Positions 50,865 through 60,615 of a DNA stretch of 64,000 nucleotides are shown here, in pieces. The DNA is from Chloroflexus aggregans DSM 9485. GTDB taxonomy: Bacteria > Chloroflexota > Chloroflexia > Chloroflexales > Chloroflexaceae. Made by a program: the position numbers and the translations under genes. A model generated the notes under the pieces. The model was not told where the DNA came from and did not search any database. It saw only the letters and a program-made list of their open reading frames with translations. The stretch spans positions 4,291,353 to 4,355,352 of the forward strand of contig NC_011831.1 of the NCBI RefSeq assembly GCF_000021945.1, in the 5' to 3' direction. Numbering within the stretch: the first letter of the stretch is position 1; each line of letters starts with the position of its first letter.

Positions 50865-51011
50865 GTCTTCACCGGTTGAGAAGTGGTGTCAAGTTTGACG
50901 TGAGATGTCGGAACGATGTTTTTATACTACAGCTTGTAAAAACCCTGGTGAAATTTTGGATGAGATTGCATAACAATCCTGTCAAACTTCAGCGGAGCGG
51001 GAGGTTTGTCT

Positions 51012-54000
51012 ATGCATAGAGTATGGCGTTGGATCAACCTACTCACCGTTTTTGTCGTGCTGTCGGGATTATTGCCAACGCAAATGCCGGTTGTTGCTAA
51101 CGAGTCGCTTTCCGCTGCTTCCTTTCGTCGTGTATCTCCTCCTCAGCAAGCACCGTCCAATCCACCACAACCAGCAGTGTCTTCATACCGAATTTTTGTG
51201 CCACTTTTGCAGTCACCGGGCTTGCTCTTGGATACTGCTGAACAGGTACTGAATACCGATCAACCAACCACTTTAACATTGCTTAATAATCAGATACAAG
51301 TCAATTTTGCACCTACTACCGATGAGCGAACGATTCAAGCTACTTTGACCGCATACAAAGGAACACCGGTTACAACTCCAGGAAGAGGACAGGCTGGGCC
51401 AGCGCTACGTCTGGTATTAGCTGATCGATTGCATCCCGGCAACGAGGTACGGCTGCCACCGACGATCACACCGCTGCCACGTCAACCGTTTTATCCCGCG
51501 GATACGCAAGTTACGCCTGGTATTGTGTTGGAATGGGTGTACAGTGACGCTGATATTTGGGGTGTAGATGAGCGTTCATTAGGTCTCTACAGGCGTCAGG
51601 CGGCTACCGATTCGTGGCAGCGCGTGCCAAGTGCAGTAATTCCCGACCAAAATCGTTTGATTGCACATCTTGAGACTGGCGGTGAGTATGCGCTGTTGGG
51701 TGAATTGCAAGTAGTGCAGTTGAACCAGCGCACCATGCGTGTAGCACTCGATCCTGATGACAATGATGGTTTTGCATTGTGGCCACAGATCGGTCGTGTC
51801 GAAGAGATGACCTACAACTGGCGCCTGGTAACAGCCGTTGAGCAGCGGTTTCGGTCGTCTGGTTGTCCGGTCAATATTCTCATTACTCGCGATGCGACAC
51901 CGTTCGTCAACGAATCGCTGCGAGCAGCGGCGATCAACGGATTCGGTGCCGATATTGCAGTGACATTGGCGTTCAATAGTTTTATAGGCACGCCATGGGG
52001 TGGTCTGGGTGATGGTGGCCCTATCGCCTTTGCGCGAATCAATGCACCGGCCGATCGGTCGCTTGCACAGCGGTTGCTTGATAGCATGCGTGATTACACC
52101 GGTCGTCGCTCGACCCGTCCGGTGTTAAGTCCGCTGCCTCATCCAGAGTTTAACAGTCTCACTATGCCGTATGCGCATCTTGAAGTGCTGTTCCTCGATC
52201 ATATCTTCGACTGGCCGGTTATCAACACTGCATTCGATCAGATAGTCAATGCCGTCTATGCCGCACTGGTATCGGAACTTACCCAGTATGGTTTGCTTTG
52301 CACGCCGCCTGGTGGATCTAACCCGACCCCACCATCGCTGTCAGCACGTCCCTCGGCTGAGCTGTTACTCCGATTGCGCAATCTGGGGTATCAAAACTTT
52401 CAGCGGTACGGCATGGATCCGGTTAGTTTCTCAACCGGGAATCACATCTTAGTCCAACCGCTGGTGCGTATTCCCGGTCGTGGTGGTCTTGATATTGACT
52501 TGACCCTCGTGTACAACTCGCAAGATCCCCGCTGCGATATTTTGGGGTGTGGTTGGAGTTTTCCCTATAACATACGGTTGCAGCGCTACAGCGACGAGTC
52601 GGTCGCGGTGGTTTACCCCGACGGTCGCACGATGCTCTATGAATGGACCGGGAGTGAGTATCGTCCTCCAGCGGGCGGATACGACCGGCTTGAGCGGCGT
52701 GAAGATTTTTGGTTCCTTACCAGCCGAGATGGTGAGCAAACATGGCAGTTTCAAGAGACGGTCACCGGCCTTGGGATTCTGGTCGCCTGGCGTGACCGGC
52801 GCGGCAATGCGTTGACCTTCACGCACGATCTGAGCGGCCAAGATGCTTGGCGGCGTGGTGAAGCTGTGCCACGTCCACCACTGACGGCAATTACCGACGC
52901 AACTGGGCGGGTGATTCGGGTGGAAAATGATGCTGCCGGGCGAATTAGGGCTTTTGTCTTGCCCGACGGCCGCCGGTTCGATCTCGAGTTCGACGATCGT
53001 GGTGATCTTGTTGCGATTACCGATGCCAATACCCCGACTCGTGGCACTTATCGGTTTGAGTACGATGAGCGCCACCGAATCGTCAAGCAGTGGGATCCTG
53101 AGGGCATCCTCTATTTGGTGAACGAGTACGATGACCGTGATCGAGTGGTGCGACAAGTTGATGCTAGTGGCTCGGTCAGCCTGGCGAGCTACGACCCGAT
53201 TGCGCGCACGACGGTATTCACCGACAATCTTGGTTTTCGGTACGTGTATGCCTACGATGAATTGTATCGGGTTATTGCTGAAACTGACCCACTCAATCGC
53301 ACGTCGCGAACAGTGTATGACGATCAATACAATGTCGTTGCCTATACCGATGCTAATGGCCGGACGGTGCGAGCCAGCTATGACCATCGTGGGCGATTGA
53401 CCGCTCTGCATGAGCCGGTGTCTGAGGGTAGTCTTGCTTGTCGTGAGCATTCCTACTCGGTTGATACAAAGGTTTGGGAATACAACGGTAGTGGGGCAAA
53501 TGCCGATCTTCCGACGGCATTCATCGATGAGCTTGGCCGACGGTGGGAGTACCGTTACGATGATGAAGGCAATCTGGTGCAGATCATCGCACCGATTGGG
53601 GCGATGTCGTTCCGCTTTGATGAATGGGGGCAGCGGGTTGCCTCGATTGATGCAGCAGGTCGTGTGACTCAATATTTCTATGACGCCCACGGCAATCTTG
53701 CCCGCATCATCGATCCGAAAAACGGTACTACGTCGTTTACCCATGACATTACCGGGCGTCTGTTGAGCATCACCGATGCTAACAATCGTACCGTTAGCTT
53801 TGCATACTATGGCAATGACCTCATAGCAAAGGTTACCGACGCCAAAGGCAACGAGCTGTCCTTCGGCTACAATCCGAACGGTCTCCTGACAAGCCTCACC
53901 GACCGCAACGGTGTAACTCGTCGCTTTAGCTATGACGTGAATCTTAATCTGATCGGTGAGTTGGATCATCCGAATGGGGCATGGTTGACGTATGCCTACG

Positions 54001-57000
54001 ACCGGTTGCAGCGCTTGATCCGCACCACCGATCGTAATGGTCATAGTACTGAATATCGCTACGATCCGGCCGGTCAGCTACGTGAGGTAATCGATCCGTT
54101 GGGGGCCATCTCTCGTTTCGACTATGACGCGGTTGGCAATCTCACATCAATTACCGATTCGCTCGGTGGAGTTCAGACGATTACTTACGATGCGGCGGAC
54201 CGACCGGTAACGGTCACAAATCCAGACGGCAGTAGTGTGACCTATTGCTACGATGCTGCCGATCGGCTTGTGCGCGTCGTTGGGCCGCGATCCGGTGAGT
54301 TCTATACGCTTACGTATGATGCCATGGATCGCTTGGTGGCGGTAACCAACGCGCTCGGTGCGACGGAGCATTTTGAGTATGATGCTGTTGGCAATCCGAT
54401 TGCCCAGATCGATCCGTTGGGTAATCGTACCGAATGGCGTTACGATGAACTCGACCGATTGGTAGCGATAATCGCGCCACCTCTCGCCGATGGCACGCGC
54501 CCTACTACCCAGTTTAGCTATGACGCGGTCGGTAATCTAACCAGTGCCACAACGCCACGTGGCTTCACGATCCAATACTTCTACGATGAAAACGGTAATC
54601 TAACCAAGGTCATTGACCCGTTGGATGCTGTCACACGCTATCTCTACGATCCTGAAGATCGGCTAATCGCGGCCACCGATCCTAACGGTCATTCCATTCG
54701 CTATACCTACGATCCGGTTGGTAATGTGGTAGCGATGACCAACGGTGCAGGTGAGAGTCTGCAATTCGTCTATGATGCAGCGTACAACGTGGTTGAACAG
54801 ATTGATCCGCTAGGGCGGGTTGTTCGATATGACTACAACGAACGCAACGAACTTGTGCGGGTGACCGATCCGCTGGGTAATCAAACTTCCTACTTGCGTG
54901 ATGCGTTAGGTCGGGTGAGTGCCGTCGTGGACGCCCTTGGCCGTCGTACCGATTATGTGTACGATCCGCTCGGTCGCTTGTTGGCAGTCATTGATCCACT
55001 GCGTAACCGTACCGGCTATGAATACAACGAGGCCGGTGATCTTGTCGCCATACGTGACGCCAACGGTAATGTGAGCCGTTTCAACTTTGATGTCATTGGC
55101 CGACTCACCGGTGAAATTGACCCCCTTGGTCGGCAGTGGCGCTATGTCTACGATGCAGCAAACCGACCAACCCAACGAATTGATGCGCTCGGACGGTCTA
55201 CCTTCTACGATTACGACAGTAATGGGCGATTAACCGGTATTCGCTACAGCGTACCGCCGACGGTTCAGTCACCGGTTACCATTACCTATGACCTTGACGG
55301 TAACGAGACAGCACGTTGCACTGATCTCGGCTGTGTGAGCCATGCGTATAATCCGCTCGGTATGCCGGTTGAGACGGTGGATTGGGCTGGACGAGTCGTA
55401 AAACGCAGTTTCGATGCTGCCGGCAATTTGGTGGAACTGATCTATCCTGATGGTCGCCCGGTACGGTATGACTACGACGCGGCGAATCGCTTAATCGGCA
55501 TTACACTGCCTGATCAGCAGAAGAGTATTATCGAACGCAATAGAGCCGGTGAGGTTGCGCAGATTATCCATCCAAACGGGATTCGCAGTAGCTTTAGCTA
55601 CGACGTTGCCGGACGCCTGACGAAGATCAACCATCGTCGTGCAGATGCTGCCGAACCGCAGACGGAGTTTGCCTACGCCCTTGATCGTGTCGGTAATCGT
55701 GTGGCGGTCAGCGAAACGCGCGCTGCGTTTGATGGTAGTAATCGGCGGGTTAACCTTACCCGAAGCTATACCTACGACAATAATAACCGGCTCATTCAGA
55801 CGATTAGTAATCTCGGTAGTGATACCCGCTATACCTTTGATGCGGTCGGCAATCGGATCGGTACAGACGGTTCGCGCCTTACGTCTGACGCTCGTCTACC
55901 CCAGTTACCGGTCAAACCTGAGGCAATTGATCAGCGCTACCGTTACGATGCGGCCAATCAACTGATCGCTGATGGAGATACAACCATACAATACAACGCC
56001 AACGGCGAGCGACAACGCGAAGAGCGCCGTCTCCCCGATGGTCGGGTCACAACTACTGATTACCAATTCGATCTTGAAGGGCGATTGATCGGGGTAACGG
56101 TGCAAACCGCCGGTGTCGTTCAGATGGAAGCCAGCTATACCTACGATGGCTATGGTCGGCGCGCGACGAAGACGGTGCGCTATCCCCAAACCGGCTTACC
56201 GCCCGAAGTGACCGAATATACTTACGATGGCCTTGACATCATTGGTAGCGAGGTACGTCAAGGGTCGTTGGTCGCATCAAGTTCGTACTTCCTGATGGAG
56301 TCACCGCTCGTGGCTTTGCGCCGCCCCTTTGCAATGGAGCGGCTTGACACCGGTTCTACGTACTGGTTCCAGACCGATGGCCTAGATTCAATCGTTGGTA
56401 TCACGGATGAAGGCGGGAATCTTGTTGGTCAGATGCTCTATGACGAGTACGGTCAGCGTCTTGCCGGCGATCCAACCCTGCAACGATTCGCCTTCACAGC
56501 CCAAGCCTACGATGCTGAGACCGGTTTTGTCCATTTCCATGCCCGTCTCTACGACCCAGCCCGCGGTGTTTGGCTCAGCCCTGACCCCTACCGTGGCAAT
56601 ATTGCTCTGCCCAATTCGCTGCATCGGTACGGCTATGTGGCCAATAATCCAACCGGTTGGATTGATGCGTGGGGCTATGACCGGCAAACCTCCGGCGGAA
56701 GTGGGGTCAGGTTAGCGGTTGGCTCGAATTCTCGTGTGTCAGTTGACGTGTCTTATAGTGGTGGGAATCGGTCGCCGGTGAACCCGGGAACCGGTAGTGC
56801 GGCAAAGAAACTGAGTAAGGGCAAGGCTATGGTTTTTTTTAAAAAGAATTCTGCTCCTATTCGTTTGAAAGATATAACTGGTCGTCTTTATCCTGCCATA
56901 CGGAGCATGTTTAGTGGAACGTTTTTTGGAGGTCTATCACCTTTTTATGCTGGACTATCATATGGAGCACGTTTAATAGAAGATTCTTTTGGAGATTCAT

Positions 57001-57461
57001 TACTTTTTTATGCTGGACATGTTGCTTGGGCTTTTCAAAAAGACGAGAATTGCTATGTTTATGGTAGTACAGATGGTCTTAGAAAGGAAGATAGGGGGAA
57101 ATATTTTTGGGTAAAAGGTCTTGATGATTGTATAAAAGAAGATGAAGTTATCAATGATATGAAAGCACGTAACCCATCTAGAAAAGTAGAAGAATATGAC
57201 GCATACAAAATAATAGAAGTAGACGATCCAAACACTAATATTGAGTGGAAAATATCCGAGGTGGAAAAACGGCAATACGGCAATTTTTTTGGTAACTGTA
57301 TGGATGATACATACGATATATTAACAGCGTATGGTGCCAAACTTCCACTGCCAATAACAAAACCTCTTCCAACATGGTTCTTCGAAAGCATAGCTGGTGA
57401 AGCTCAGGAGCTGAACCCGAACCCGAAAATGAACACCACAGACCCAAAGGGGAAAAAATAG
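51012..57461 (+). CDS. RHS/YD-repeat protein with degenerate amidase-like domain and AT-rich C-terminal tip
   Basis: 2149 residues, exported (signal peptide about 1-30). Residues ~240-430 look like an N-acetylmuramoyl-L-alanine amidase (amidase_3) fold: VALDPDDNDGF, a spaced ILITRDATPFVN, RAAAINGFGADIAVTLAFN and AHLEVLFLDHIFD. Two zinc His positions read Asp and Ala, so it is probably inactive. From ~505 to ~1830 some 60 YD repeats form a shell, ending in the RHS core (VHFHARLYDPARGVWLSPDP). The last ~250 residues are different, encoded by AT-rich DNA (56820-57400), with GHVAWAF (~2002) and GNCMDDTYDIL (Cys ~2096), which could be a papain-like/permuted NlpC His-Cys pair. Such tips are usually toxins. 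No immunity gene is evident. ATG 51012 has GCGGGAGG upstream. Confidence 0.88.
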   Translation: MHRVWRWINLLTVFVVLSGLLPTQMPVVANESLSAASFRRVSPPQQAPSNPPQPAVSSYRIFVPLLQSPGLLLDTAEQVLNTDQPTTLTLLNNQIQVNFAPTTDERTIQATLTAYKGTPVTTPGRGQAGPALRLVLADRLHPGNEVRLPPTITPLPRQPFYPADTQVTPGIVLEWVYSDADIWGVDERSLGLYRRQAATDSWQRVPSAVIPDQNRLIAHLETGGEYALLGELQVVQLNQRTMRVALDPDDNDGFALWPQIGRVEEMTYNWRLVTAVEQRFRSSGCPVNILITRDATPFVNESLRAAAINGFGADIAVTLAFNSFIGTPWGGLGDGGPIAFARINAPADRSLAQRLLDSMRDYTGRRSTRPVLSPLPHPEFNSLTMPYAHLEVLFLDHIFDWPVINTAFDQIVNAVYAALVSELTQYGLLCTPPGGSNPTPPSLSARPSAELLLRLRNLGYQNFQRYGMDPVSFSTGNHILVQPLVRIPGRGGLDIDLTLVYNSQDPRCDILGCGWSFPYNIRLQRYSDESVAVVYPDGRTMLYEWTGSEYRPPAGGYDRLERREDFWFLTSRDGEQTWQFQETVTGLGILVAWRDRRGNALTFTHDLSGQDAWRRGEAVPRPPLTAITDATGRVIRVENDAAGRIRAFVLPDGRRFDLEFDDRGDLVAITDANTPTRGTYRFEYDERHRIVKQWDPEGILYLVNEYDDRDRVVRQVDASGSVSLASYDPIARTTVFTDNLGFRYVYAYDELYRVIAETDPLNRTSRTVYDDQYNVVAYTDANGRTVRASYDHRGRLTALHEPVSEGSLACREHSYSVDTKVWEYNGSGANADLPTAFIDELGRRWEYRYDDEGNLVQIIAPIGAMSFRFDEWGQRVASIDAAGRVTQYFYDAHGNLARIIDPKNGTTSFTHDITGRLLSITDANNRTVSFAYYGNDLIAKVTDAKGNELSFGYNPNGLLTSLTDRNGVTRRFSYDVNLNLIGELDHPNGAWLTYAYDRLQRLIRTTDRNGHSTEYRYDPAGQLREVIDPLGAISRFDYDAVGNLTSITDSLGGVQTITYDAADRPVTVTNPDGSSVTYCYDAADRLVRVVGPRSGEFYTLTYDAMDRLVAVTNALGATEHFEYDAVGNPIAQIDPLGNRTEWRYDELDRLVAIIAPPLADGTRPTTQFSYDAVGNLTSATTPRGFTIQYFYDENGNLTKVIDPLDAVTRYLYDPEDRLIAATDPNGHSIRYTYDPVGNVVAMTNGAGESLQFVYDAAYNVVEQIDPLGRVVRYDYNERNELVRVTDPLGNQTSYLRDALGRVSAVVDALGRRTDYVYDPLGRLLAVIDPLRNRTGYEYNEAGDLVAIRDANGNVSRFNFDVIGRLTGEIDPLGRQWRYVYDAANRPTQRIDALGRSTFYDYDSNGRLTGIRYSVPPTVQSPVTITYDLDGNETARCTDLGCVSHAYNPLGMPVETVDWAGRVVKRSFDAAGNLVELIYPDGRPVRYDYDAANRLIGITLPDQQKSIIERNRAGEVAQIIHPNGIRSSFSYDVAGRLTKINHRRADAAEPQTEFAYALDRVGNRVAVSETRAAFDGSNRRVNLTRSYTYDNNNRLIQTISNLGSDTRYTFDAVGNRIGTDGSRLTSDARLPQLPVKPEAIDQRYRYDAANQLIADGDTTIQYNANGERQREERRLPDGRVTTTDYQFDLEGRLIGVTVQTAGVVQMEASYTYDGYGRRATKTVRYPQTGLPPEVTEYTYDGLDIIGSEVRQGSLVASSSYFLMESPLVALRRPFAMERLDTGSTYWFQTDGLDSIVGITDEGGNLVGQMLYDEYGQRLAGDPTLQRFAFTAQAYDAETGFVHFHARLYDPARGVWLSPDPYRGNIALPNSLHRYGYVANNPTGWIDAWGYDRQTSGGSGVRLAVGSNSRVSVDVSYSGGNRSPVNPGTGSAAKKLSKGKAMVFFKKNSAPIRLKDITGRLYPAIRSMFSGTFFGGLSPFYAGLSYGARLIEDSFGDSLLFYAGHVAWAFQKDENCYVYGSTDGLRKEDRGKYFWVKGLDDCIKEDEVINDMKARNPSRKVEEYDAYKIIEVDDPNTNIEWKISEVEKRQYGNFFGNCMDDTYDILTAYGAKLPLPITKPLPTWFFESIAGEAQELNPNPKMNTTDPKGKK

Positions 57462-57521
57462 CTGGTGAAGCTCAGGAGCTGAACCCGAACCCGAAAATGA
57501 ACACCACAAACCCAAAGGAGC
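57390..57521 (+). repeat. Tandem duplication (68-bp period) at the end of the RHS gene
   Basis: ATAGCTGGTGAAGCTCAGG... to ...CCCAAAGG occurs at 57390-57450 and again at 57458-57518 with one or two changes. The first copy encodes the RHS C-terminus; the second begins at its stop codon and ends in the ribosome site AAAGGAG of the next gene. The period is not a multiple of 3. Confidence 0.9.
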
Positions 57522-57525
57522 ACTT

Positions 57526-60500
57526 ATGTCGAACCGAACACGTTCTTTGTTCGTGCTCACGGCCATGGTAGCGGTGATACTGACCACAATGCCGGTTAAG
57601 GCTACCTTTGGCTGCCAAGGCGAGCTTGATGAGAAGTCGCGGTTGGGGTTGATGCCACCGGCATGCGGCCCGGCTCTCAACGAACCGGTAACGACCACGA
57701 CGGCTGAGGCGACAATGTTTGCCTCCCCGCTTGAGGTGTCGGTGTCCAGTTGGCCGCAAGTGGTGGCAGCGGTAAACCTTGATACCGACTCGGCTGCCGA
57801 GTTGCCGTTGTTGACCGATCAGTATTTTGCACCAGAGACCGATCGGTCGTTGTTTGTCTACGATCTACAAGATAGCACATTGCGCGCGGTGCAGCAGGTG
57901 GCAGCCGGTTCTACACCGTCGGCTATGGCAGTCACCGCCGGTCAGTCTGGCCCTCTCGTGGCCGCAGCGTTAGCCGGAAGCAATGCGTTGGCGGTGTATA
58001 CCGGCACAGTGCCTTTGCGTGGTCCGCATATGCTGCGCCAGACCGGTTCGCCTGATGCTGTGGCCTTTGCCGATGTAAATGGCGATTTGTGGCCCGACCT
58101 TGCAGCGGTTAGTCCAGAAATTGATACGATCACGATCCGTAATCCGCATCAAGCCGGTATGCCGATCCTGTTGCAGGTACCCTTCGCCACCGATGGGTTT
58201 AGTGCGTTACGGGTTGGTGATCTCGATAATAATGGGTTTGATGATCTGGTCGTGTTGCGTGGCGCCGGTTATACGCGCGATTCGGTGGTGATTTTGTTGC
58301 AAGGGAGTAGTGGTTTTCCCCATCAATTAACGCTGAGTCCGGAAACAGGTGGTTTTTTACCGCATAGTCTGGCAGTTGGCGATCTGAATGGCGATGGCCG
58401 TGATGATATTGCCGTGGTAGCCGGTGGCAATAGTCCAAACGCTTTTCTTAGTGTGTTTCTGCAAACAACGAGTGGTTTCACCGCTTTGCCACCGTTGCCG
58501 ACATTCCACATCCCCGGTGCCGTGTCAATTGCCGACGTTACCCACGACGGGCGGAATGATATAGTGGTGTTTCACCATGCATGGCGTACATTGAGTGTCT
58601 ATGCTCAACAGTCTGATGGTCGTTTTGCCGAGCCGATGACGAAAACGGTACCGTATAGTGGATCGCGTCGGCCTGACTCGTTAAGTGTGGCCGATGTGAA
58701 TGGTGATGGTGGTTTAGATGTGGCCCTGGTGGGTCGCCAACCCGGTCTGACAGTGCTGCTCAATACGGCCGGTGCGCCGGTAGCGACGATCACGTCACCG
58801 GACGCAACGACACGCTTGCCGGCCGGTCCACTGCTTGTTCGGGGCACGATGAGTAGCGGTACTGTGCAGGTTGAGGTGCGGATTAAGGGGGTCACTGATT
58901 GGCAACCGGCAACGTTGAGTGCAAGCGAGTGGCAGGCTACGCTAACCTTGCCTGATGCAGTACGGCCATATACGATTGAAGCACGAGCAATTGATAGTAG
59001 TGGCCGAGTGCAAGCACCGCCGGCACAGCTACGGATACAGGTCGCGCCATTACTGATCGGTTATGCAGTGGCCGATAACGGCGAATCGCCTGTCCCCGGT
59101 GATCGCCTGATGCGGTTTGATCCGGAGACCGGTGCAGCGACGCTGATCGGCTCGACCGGTACCGATCATATTCACGCCATCACGTTTTTGCCCGGTACTA
59201 ATACGTTGTTGGCGGCCAACCTTGATCGTCTCGGTACGATCGATCTCACCACCGGCCGCTTTACCCCATTCCCGCGCCCGTTTGGTGTCGGACGCAACGG
59301 GAGCCGGACGCGCGTCTTCACTAATGCCCATGGGTTGACCCCCGATCCGCGCGATGGTACGCTCTTTGCCGCAATGCGGTTGGGAAATGGGCAGCCTGAT
59401 CTGTTGTTCAAACTCAATCCGGTTACCGGTACGTATATACCTGATGCGTTTGGGCCGGGTAAGGATTTTGTGGAGGTAACCGGTGTTGGTGTTGGTGATG
59501 ATATTGACGATCTGGCCTTTGACCCCGCTACCAACACGCTATACGCCATTGCAAACGTTGATGGTCGCCGAGATCAACTTGTGACGCTCGATCCCGTTAC
59601 CGGTGTTGCAACAGTGATCGGTAGTCTTGGGGTTGAGAATATGGAAGGGTTAGCTCTCGCGCCAAATGGTGTACTGTACGGTAGTACCGGTAGCTCACGG
59701 CCGGCAACGCGCGATCGACTATGGACGATCAATCGTACTAACGGAACGGCCAGTTTGGTCGGGCCGTTTGGGATCGAAACTGACTACGAGGCAATTGCTT
59801 TCGTACCGCCGCGAGTGACCGTTCCTACCCTTGCCACAGTGCCGCGGTTGAGTAGTCTCATGGTACATAATGCTCAATTGACGACTTCTGACTTATCGGT
59901 CACCATTCAAGGTGGGATAGCTCACGGTGATTCGTCGAATCTCGTACTCATCACCGAATATGCGTTTGATCCGGTACAGAGCGATTGGCAACCGCATACC
60001 GGTAGTGTGCAACTGGCAACGACCTATATTCCGGCAGATACGCTGGCTAACGGTGTGTCGTGGCAATTAGTACGCACTGTTGGAGCGCATTATATTCTCG
60101 CAGGAGTCGTCAATGATAACGGTCAATCACTATCTCTACCTGAGCGTGCTCTCATCAACTATCTGCCGCCACAATTCGATTTGGCCGCCGGTGAAGTGGC
60201 TGTCTTCCGTTATATCCTGAATACCGGGGATCAGCTCGATGTACAGCTTGAAACACTAAATGGTGATGCTGATATCGTGATCTGGTCAGGCGATGATCCA
60301 GAAACAGCATGGGTGAGCAATCTCGCTGTCGGTAACGATCATATCTACCTTACCGCACCCCTTGATGGCTTGTATCAGATCGAAATCCGTGCTCAGATGA
60401 GGAGCACTGTACGTTTGCACATCTCGTCGATTGCACGTGAACAAGCTTCACCACGTGCTGATGGGAGTGCCGGACGCGATCCCGGTAAGGAGCTGCCGAG

Positions 60501-60594
60501 TGAGCCGGTTGTTAGTCTGGCAGCGATCCCGACAAGCCTGATCACCGATCCGGGTACGTCTCATACTATCTACCTTCCCATTATCGGGCGCTGA
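57526..60594 (+). CDS. Secreted FG-GAP/beta-propeller protein with PPC-like C-terminus
   Basis: 1022 residues with a signal peptide (about 1-27). Residues ~170-420 hold at least five FG-GAP/VCBS calcium-binding repeats (FADVNGDLWPDLAAV, GDLDNNGFDDLVVL, GDLNGDGRDDIAVV, ADVTHDGRNDIVVF, ADVNGDGGLDVALV). An Ig-like module follows (PVATITSPDATTRLPAGPLL), then a second propeller (GDRLMRFDPETGAATLIGST; LVTLDPVTGVATVIGSLG). Near the end is a pre-peptidase-like domain (FDLAAGEVAVFRYILNTG, LYQIEIRAQ) and the tail HTIYLPIIGR. No enzyme motif. Likely a cell-surface binding or adhesion protein. It starts 65 bases after the RHS gene, behind AAAGGAG, and may be co-transcribed with it. Confidence 0.85.
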   Translation: MSNRTRSLFVLTAMVAVILTTMPVKATFGCQGELDEKSRLGLMPPACGPALNEPVTTTTAEATMFASPLEVSVSSWPQVVAAVNLDTDSAAELPLLTDQYFAPETDRSLFVYDLQDSTLRAVQQVAAGSTPSAMAVTAGQSGPLVAAALAGSNALAVYTGTVPLRGPHMLRQTGSPDAVAFADVNGDLWPDLAAVSPEIDTITIRNPHQAGMPILLQVPFATDGFSALRVGDLDNNGFDDLVVLRGAGYTRDSVVILLQGSSGFPHQLTLSPETGGFLPHSLAVGDLNGDGRDDIAVVAGGNSPNAFLSVFLQTTSGFTALPPLPTFHIPGAVSIADVTHDGRNDIVVFHHAWRTLSVYAQQSDGRFAEPMTKTVPYSGSRRPDSLSVADVNGDGGLDVALVGRQPGLTVLLNTAGAPVATITSPDATTRLPAGPLLVRGTMSSGTVQVEVRIKGVTDWQPATLSASEWQATLTLPDAVRPYTIEARAIDSSGRVQAPPAQLRIQVAPLLIGYAVADNGESPVPGDRLMRFDPETGAATLIGSTGTDHIHAITFLPGTNTLLAANLDRLGTIDLTTGRFTPFPRPFGVGRNGSRTRVFTNAHGLTPDPRDGTLFAAMRLGNGQPDLLFKLNPVTGTYIPDAFGPGKDFVEVTGVGVGDDIDDLAFDPATNTLYAIANVDGRRDQLVTLDPVTGVATVIGSLGVENMEGLALAPNGVLYGSTGSSRPATRDRLWTINRTNGTASLVGPFGIETDYEAIAFVPPRVTVPTLATVPRLSSLMVHNAQLTTSDLSVTIQGGIAHGDSSNLVLITEYAFDPVQSDWQPHTGSVQLATTYIPADTLANGVSWQLVRTVGAHYILAGVVNDNGQSLSLPERALINYLPPQFDLAAGEVAVFRYILNTGDQLDVQLETLNGDADIVIWSGDDPETAWVSNLAVGNDHIYLTAPLDGLYQIEIRAQMRSTVRLHISSIAREQASPRADGSAGRDPGKELPSEPVVSLAAIPTSLITDPGTSHTIYLPIIGR

Positions 60595-60615
60595 ACCTTT
60601 GCTATTGATACTGTC

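Follow-up and report, generated by a model that had tools for sequence, protein, structure and literature searches.

A putative permuted papain-like enzyme at the exchanged tip of an RHS protein of Chloroflexus aggregans

Introduction

Among the structures compared, the nearest to the element studied here, the AT-rich C-terminal tip of an RHS/YD-repeat protein of Chloroflexus aggregans DSM 9485, is TseH (6v98), a type VI secretion system (T6SS) effector of Vibrio cholerae, whose core is a permuted NlpC/P60 domain and which corresponds to Pfam DUF6695 (PMC12994826). The tip differs from TseH in that the two are about 10% identical, and in being carried by an RHS shell and not, as far as seen, by a T6SS. 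The gene lies in “the window,” that is, the whole stretch of 64,000 nucleotides analysed (positions 4291353-4355352), in a genome that forms one contig of 4,684,931 bases (labelled G000).

Several other described enzymes bear comparison. Tox-Act1, a Salmonella toxin domain of the permuted NlpC/P60 group with phospholipase activity, has a permuted papain-like core with His before Cys (H43, C151), as in the tip, to which we liken it by description; unlike the tip, for which none was recognised, it has a membrane-associated immunity protein (PMC12994826). Peptidase_C92 (YiiX/YaeF-like, PF05708; 3kw0) has the residue order of the tip and a reported hydrophobic, lipid-type pocket (PMC3142127), and PPPDE/DeSI (PF05903; 3ebq, 2wp7) has a permuted papain-like fold; the tip matches neither Pfam model. 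TseH, PPPDE1, DeSI-1, and 3kw0 are all described as permuted papain-like (PMC12994826, PMC10318531). The papain-like enzymes named from RHS and other polymorphic toxins, Tox-PL1, Tox-PL2, and Tox-PL3, differ from the tip: Tox-PL1 likewise has Asn-Cys, but the signatures run from Cys to His (NC-H-DxQ in Tox-PL1; PMC3482391), while the tip runs from His to Cys.

In the literature searched we found no published account of polymorphic toxins in Chloroflexus aggregans, nor any naming of this tip; PMC13377157 is about a DNase and unrelated to it. Our reading, to which we give a probability of about 0.6, is that the tip, acquired by horizontal exchange, is a cysteine enzyme with a circularly permuted papain-like (NlpC/P60-type) fold that terminates a probably exported RHS shell, a thiol acyl-hydrolase or acyltransferase that is probably directed at lipids.

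Results

Between a core and a downstream gene that are both conserved, the tip has been replaced. The RHS end is present in four of the eight genomes of the genus at an expectation value (E) <= 1e-10, the own genome included, and in one of these congeners (G005) it is 84% identical in protein. In a blastn comparison of positions 55000-60600 with the syntenic G005 locus, 55015-56678 aligns at 77.1% and 57619-60595 at 74.4%, while the segment between (the linker, the tip, the gap, and the first codons of the next gene) gives chance-level short matches only; blastp of the window tip against the G005 tip found no match. Because the flanks align and the middle does not, G005 has an orthologous shell and an orthologous downstream FG-GAP gene, with a different tip after the same residues. 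The G005 tip is also AT-rich, with a GC content of 43.6% versus 62.4% in its own shell. Similarity to G005 stops at 56678, some 135-140 bp short of the AT-rich part of the window tip, and the exchanged segment therefore includes a linker of more ordinary GC content. An earlier note, made from the letters of the window, had proposed a horizontally exchanged tip, and against the G005 locus the exchange is directly visible.

A second congener (G006) encodes a 2165-aa RHS protein that is 52% identical at the core end and stands in a different gene neighbourhood, as far as seen; the end of this protein and the window tip have one 16-residue match only (E 2.6). The RHS proteins of G005 and G006 (L059:5988-9749; L060:5650-12147) have in common a 61-residue stretch that adjoins the core (48% identity, E 6.6e-14). 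Past this stretch there is no significant match between them, so that both carry a pre-tip module which the window protein does not have. In a third (G004) the RHS match extends to the contig end. Two features of RHS polymorphic toxins are present: RHS repeats and the RHS-associated core precede the tip, and the tip differs behind a conserved shell, both at the syntenic locus of G005 and in G006. The end of the G006 RHS protein contains AHHILPKK. By eye we take the G006 tip, which is unnamed by Pfam and NCBIfam, to resemble an AHH/HNH-type nuclease.

The change in composition is marked. GC content is 0.360 in 56814-57383 versus 0.544 in the RHS core (52500-56678) and 0.571 in the whole window, and GC content at third codon positions is 0.226 in the tip versus 0.555 in the core. 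The stretch 56814-57383 is the most AT-rich of the window: values as low occur in only 2 of 6344 sliding 570-bp windows, both inside the stretch, and the lowest value for such windows starting outside 56000-57600 is 0.439. The window has 17 A/T runs of at least 6, and five of them fall in 56833-57458, so that the AT-rich tip with A/T runs, which the earlier note had described after the RHS core, is borne out by all of these measures.

Two pairs of repeats are found in the same region. The copies of a 67-nt tandem repeat lie at 68-bp spacing, the period not being a multiple of three, from near the end of the tip frame into the gap, and the copies of a 32-nt repeat lie 63 bp apart in a helical insert, the second stopping at the predicted catalytic Gly-His; the 27 identical positions of the latter pair were reached by 0 of 300 dinucleotide shuffles. 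There is no second full copy of the tip in its own genome, where only the repeated 3′ end recurs.

The residues expected of an active site are conserved, as a set composed of a His, an acidic residue, a Tyr, and an Asn-Cys pair. We compared 20 sequences: the tip, seven from a search with the tip as query, eight from an alignment-based scan, and four from profile searches. The Pseudomonadota loci L050 and L051 (E 0.004 and 0.008; internal stops), the 3′ repeat copy L002, and the duplicate loci L018-L020, L023, L024, L028, and L031-L046 were excluded before the count. His2005 and Cys2098 are 93 residues apart, in GHVAWAF and GNCMDDTYDIL, respectively, the two segments that had been noted about 95 residues apart, and both are kept in every member, which answers the earlier concern that they might vary freely. 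The sole departure at the Tyr is in a Gallionella protein (L017), where it stands ten and not six residues before Asn. The order of His then Cys and a conserved third polar residue, which mark permuted NlpC/P60 enzymes, are thus both present in the sequence, with catalysis predicted.

The fold is predicted to be permuted papain-like, nearest to TseH among the structures compared. In a structure model from one family alignment (A2; predicted local distance difference test score, pLDDT, 78.4; predicted template modelling score, pTM, 0.75), His69 of the modelled segment begins a strand (69-77) and Cys162 begins a helix (162-172), as in a permuted papain-like core. VIA-align 2 placed TseH first (Z 12.3 over 149 residues, root-mean-square deviation 3.4), followed by PPPDE1 (Z 7.3), DeSI-1 (6.7), and the Bacillus cereus enzyme 3kw0 (6.4), with the following row at 4.7; the program warns that Z < 8 may reflect merely a common arrangement. 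The His-then-Cys permuted fold suspected in the earlier note is therefore supported by conservation and by an alignment-based model that resembles TseH, while Foldseek alone gave nothing significant. A non-significant hhalign comparison gave two short alignments in which the tip His falls on the His of Peptidase_C92 and the tip Cys on the Cys of its YCSQ motif, which we take to be catalytic.

Known families did not name the tip. The profile search that had been suggested found no match in Pfam or NCBIfam at E <= 5, and the tip alone had none in PHROGs, plasmids, phages, PADLOC, or a first scan of genome contigs; nor did 16 family members match DUF6695, Peptidase_C92, LRAT, or PPPDE in Pfam at E <= 5, as was also true of the tip. 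A viral fold search returned nothing at E <= 0.001, family alignments found nothing in viral contigs, and two stand-alone relatives found nothing in plasmids, one of them also nothing in phages. A search for DUF6695 found none in 201 Chloroflexota genomes, yet the controls gave no signal either. We judged the following to be chance matches: in the PDB by sequence, dynamin-binding protein (E 0.36) and, with the profile, acylphosphatase (E 0.17) and a lectin; in Pfam, Glyoxalase in 2 of 16 members (best E 0.074) and DUF6566 in 1 of 16 (E 0.031); and an NCBIfam match of L017 (E 0.18).

A search with the tip sequence matched 7 of 400 Chloroflexota genomes at E <= 0.01, its own genome among them, and a profile of 16 sequences finds the same seven. 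The alignment-based scan of genome contigs gave 14 loci, six in apparently known places and eight new (one Gallionella, seven Eremiobacterota). The profile matched 3 of 58 genomes in a phylum sample around G426 (Eremiobacterota), 3 of 398 in one around the Gallionella genome G423 (this genome and two probable chance matches), and 5 of 47 in the class of G098, all of them already found.

In architecture the relatives differ from the window protein and from each other. Eleven of the 19 are stand-alone proteins of about 199-225 aa, with no obvious signal by eye. Three from Chloroflexota (L013:6370-7662, L014:8990-10336, L015:6612-7952) have an N-terminal DUF308 segment fused before the tip domain. 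One (L016, 3967-6642), the weakest match of the tip-query search (E 0.0061), has 891 aa, appears by eye to be probably secreted, and combines ricin-B lectin repeats with a C-terminal copy of the tip domain; another (L010) lies in a 423-aa frame with no Pfam match, and three (L047, L048, L049) have frames of 283-328 aa that continue further at the C-terminus. In Eremiobacterota, leaving aside these last three, six of the eight loci examined (L022, L025, L026, L027, L029, L052) stand almost directly behind an rpoC-like gene, a seventh (L021) is about 2.9 kb after one, and L030 shows none. The gene preceding L025 is RNA polymerase beta-prime by Pfam, and the other preceding genes have its motif and its end. 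Judging by the stand-alone relatives, toxicity is probably not the role of the family at large, and the tip may be a recruited enzyme.

An immunity gene beside the tip was not recognised. In G000 only 64 bp separate the RHS stop from the start at 57526, which leaves no room for an immunity gene; after this gap come the FG-GAP gene, a histidine phosphatase, and an RDD protein; the absence of a small downstream immunity gene, as first reported, thus holds. The divergent upstream 134-aa gene has no Pfam or PADLOC match. In G005 the gap is 133 bp, with a longest frame of 38 codons in the RHS direction, and in G006 it is 421 bp, with a longest frame of 64 codons. Antisense open reading frames over the tip (57000-57275, 57059-57391, 57235-57447, 57321-57698) were rejected as immunity genes by judgement, as they overlap the coding strand. 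An adjacent immunity gene is frequent in such systems and not universal, judging from the “-” entered for several toxin families, as we interpret it (PMC3482391). An unlinked immunity gene may exist, because no immunity family is known for the tip.

Finally, the features of the shell itself are collected with those of the tip in Table 1. Pfam finds 29 RHS_repeat stretches in the protein (E 6.9e-166) and a DUF6531 match, and the hydrophobic N-terminus makes it probable that the shell is exported via Sec. The Amidase_3-like domain may have no catalytic role and yet be conserved within the shell. It contains DPDDNDG, and the G006 protein has DPDDDDG at the equivalent place. The zinc-binding His of the Amidase_3 motif DPGHGG thus seems, by eye, to be missing in the window protein.

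Table 1. Features of the RHS gene, its tip, and the adjoining DNA (positions in the window)
Feature	Position	Strand	Basis or remark
RHS/YD-repeat protein with C-terminal enzyme tip (predicted)	51006..57461	+	one open frame, 2151 aa; first ATG 51012
Hydrophobic N-terminal stretch, probable Sec signal peptide	51012..51098	+	by eye from translation, no predictor
Amidase_3-like domain, residues 264-421, perhaps inactive	51795..52268	+	passes Pfam cut-off, E 7.7e-09
RHS-associated core end, residues 1812-1890	56439..56675	+	Rhs_assc_core TIGR03696, E 1.4e-16; G005 alignment stops at 56678, right behind DAWGY
Segment with no similarity to G005 syntenic locus	56679..57618	+	blastn
Predicted permuted papain-like domain, residues ~1937-2133, AT-rich	56814..57404	+	GC, family alignment, model; end set by eye
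Helical insert, ~50 residues, before predicted catalytic His	56856..57011	+	unique to tip among 16 aligned members; model helices 18-34 and 42-62, lower confidence
32-nt repeat, first copy	56924..56955	+	27/32 identical to 56987-57018
32-nt repeat, second copy	56987..57018	+
His2005 codon (GHVAWAF), predicted catalytic base	57018..57020	+	kept in 20/20
Asp2023 codon, predicted third residue	57072..57074	+	Asp/Glu at His+18/19 in 20/20
Tyr2091 codon, candidate oxyanion-hole residue	57276..57278	+	Tyr six before Asn in 19/20
Cys2098 codon (NCMDD), predicted nucleophile	57297..57299	+	Asn-Cys kept in 20/20
67-nt tandem repeat, first copy, near end of tip frame	57384..57450	+
67-nt tandem repeat, second copy, last RHS codons into gap	57452..57518	+	96% identical
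Downstream FG-GAP gene	57526..60594	+	Pfam FG-GAP_3 E 1.4e-23; ortholog adjoins G005 RHS gene, 74.4% DNA identity

Discussion

In the mechanism that we propose, the RHS shell would keep the tip until a competing cell or surface is reached; there His2005 would activate Cys2098, Asp2023 would complete the triad, Tyr2091 would lie close to the oxyanion hole, and Cys2098 would form a thioacyl intermediate. The substrate would be an acyl bond of a membrane lipid or lipoprotein and not a peptide. Tox-Act1 cleaves phosphatidylglycerol and phosphatidylethanolamine and needs its His and Cys for toxicity, and TseH acted as a phospholipase on liposomes, though solely at pH 8.9 (PMC12994826); our best guess at the substrate is therefore an acyl bond of a lipid or lipoprotein, and for permuted members more generally a hydrophobic, lipid-type pocket has been argued (PMC3142127). 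That the tip is toxic we infer; protection of kin would be unlinked, or else unneeded because the tip would act outside the producer's own sensitive compartment.

Several observations weigh against the tip being such an enzyme and a toxin. On the structural side, Foldseek alone found nothing in the PDB at E <= 0.001, its best E being 0.42, VIA-align re-ranks Foldseek's own list and has just one chain that reaches Z 8, most of its rows match the helical insert alone with the other parts rated as barely tested by the tool, and a single-sequence model was poor (pLDDT 37.1) and was not used in fold searches. An hhalign profile comparison, made with three C92 proteins only, gave E 0.25-0.45, which is not significant. 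The conservation count is partly biased, as eight members came from a scan with patterns built on Gly-His and Asn-Cys, Asn-Cys was required in locating four of the rows, and the rpoC-linked rows are near-identical and hence not independent; no circularity arises for the seven rows that a search with just the tip sequence found. In the family tree the tip has a long branch and lacks a supported neighbour, and its composition is flagged. The window's own protein is the only 1 of 20 members with the domain as an RHS tip, and the stand-alone relatives, several of them behind rpoC, point to a mostly non-toxic family. To these are added the want of a recognised immunity gene beside the tip and the inactivity of TseH in a mass-spectrometry lipid assay (PMC12994826).

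Could the tip instead cut peptide bonds, as a peptidase or isopeptidase that attacks target proteins or peptidoglycan peptides, or as a protease that processes its own shell? We regard this as possible but improbable. PPPDE1 and DeSI-1 rank second and third structurally, at Z < 8, and PPPDE proteins are listed as deubiquitinases or desumoylases (PMC10318531); TseH, too, was originally proposed as an endopeptidase (PMC12994826), and papain-like domains of polymorphic toxins are listed both as toxins and as releasing peptidases (PMC3482391). The tip domain is C-terminal, however, with nothing behind it to release, and the permuted members have been tied to lipids (PMC12994826, PMC3142127).

A further alternative, which we hold to be about equally tentative, makes the tip no weapon at all but a housekeeping-type enzyme that the RHS gene has captured and that now serves at the surface of the producer, where it might, for instance, acylate or anchor the RHS protein. 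The preponderance of stand-alone relatives, some directly behind rpoC, together with the three DUF308 fusions, would fit such a role, which would also explain the missing immunity gene, none being recognised in the gap of either G000 or G005. On the other hand, a tip that is replaced between close species while the shell stays conserved is what weapon tips usually show, and in the probably exported lectin-repeat relative (L016) the domain is C-terminal too. That the tip is non-functional DNA decaying after exchange, as the 3′ tandem repeat, the part-repeat insert before the His, and the long branch might suggest, is quite unlikely, given a frame that is open throughout, predicted active-site residues that are all kept, and a tandem repeat that lies beyond the conserved core.

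Returning to an exchanged, probably lipid-directed cysteine enzyme on an exported shell, we would add one broader and rather doubtful idea: a permuted papain-like family that Pfam does not hold may serve both as an RHS weapon tip and, in Eremiobacterota, as a stand-alone protein of the rpoC cluster, the weapon having been recruited from an intracellular acyl-transfer enzyme and having no cognate immunity gene because it would harm only membranes unlike the producer's.

The finding adds a family with no Pfam or NCBIfam model, in Chloroflexota, to the probable permuted papain-like enzymes. It also provides a clean natural exchange of tips between congeners, with no immunity gene recognisable beside either form, so that tolerance of such tips becomes testable. 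The Eremiobacterota gene directly behind rpoC, in turn, suggests that the same enzyme has an ancestor or a role outside conflict.

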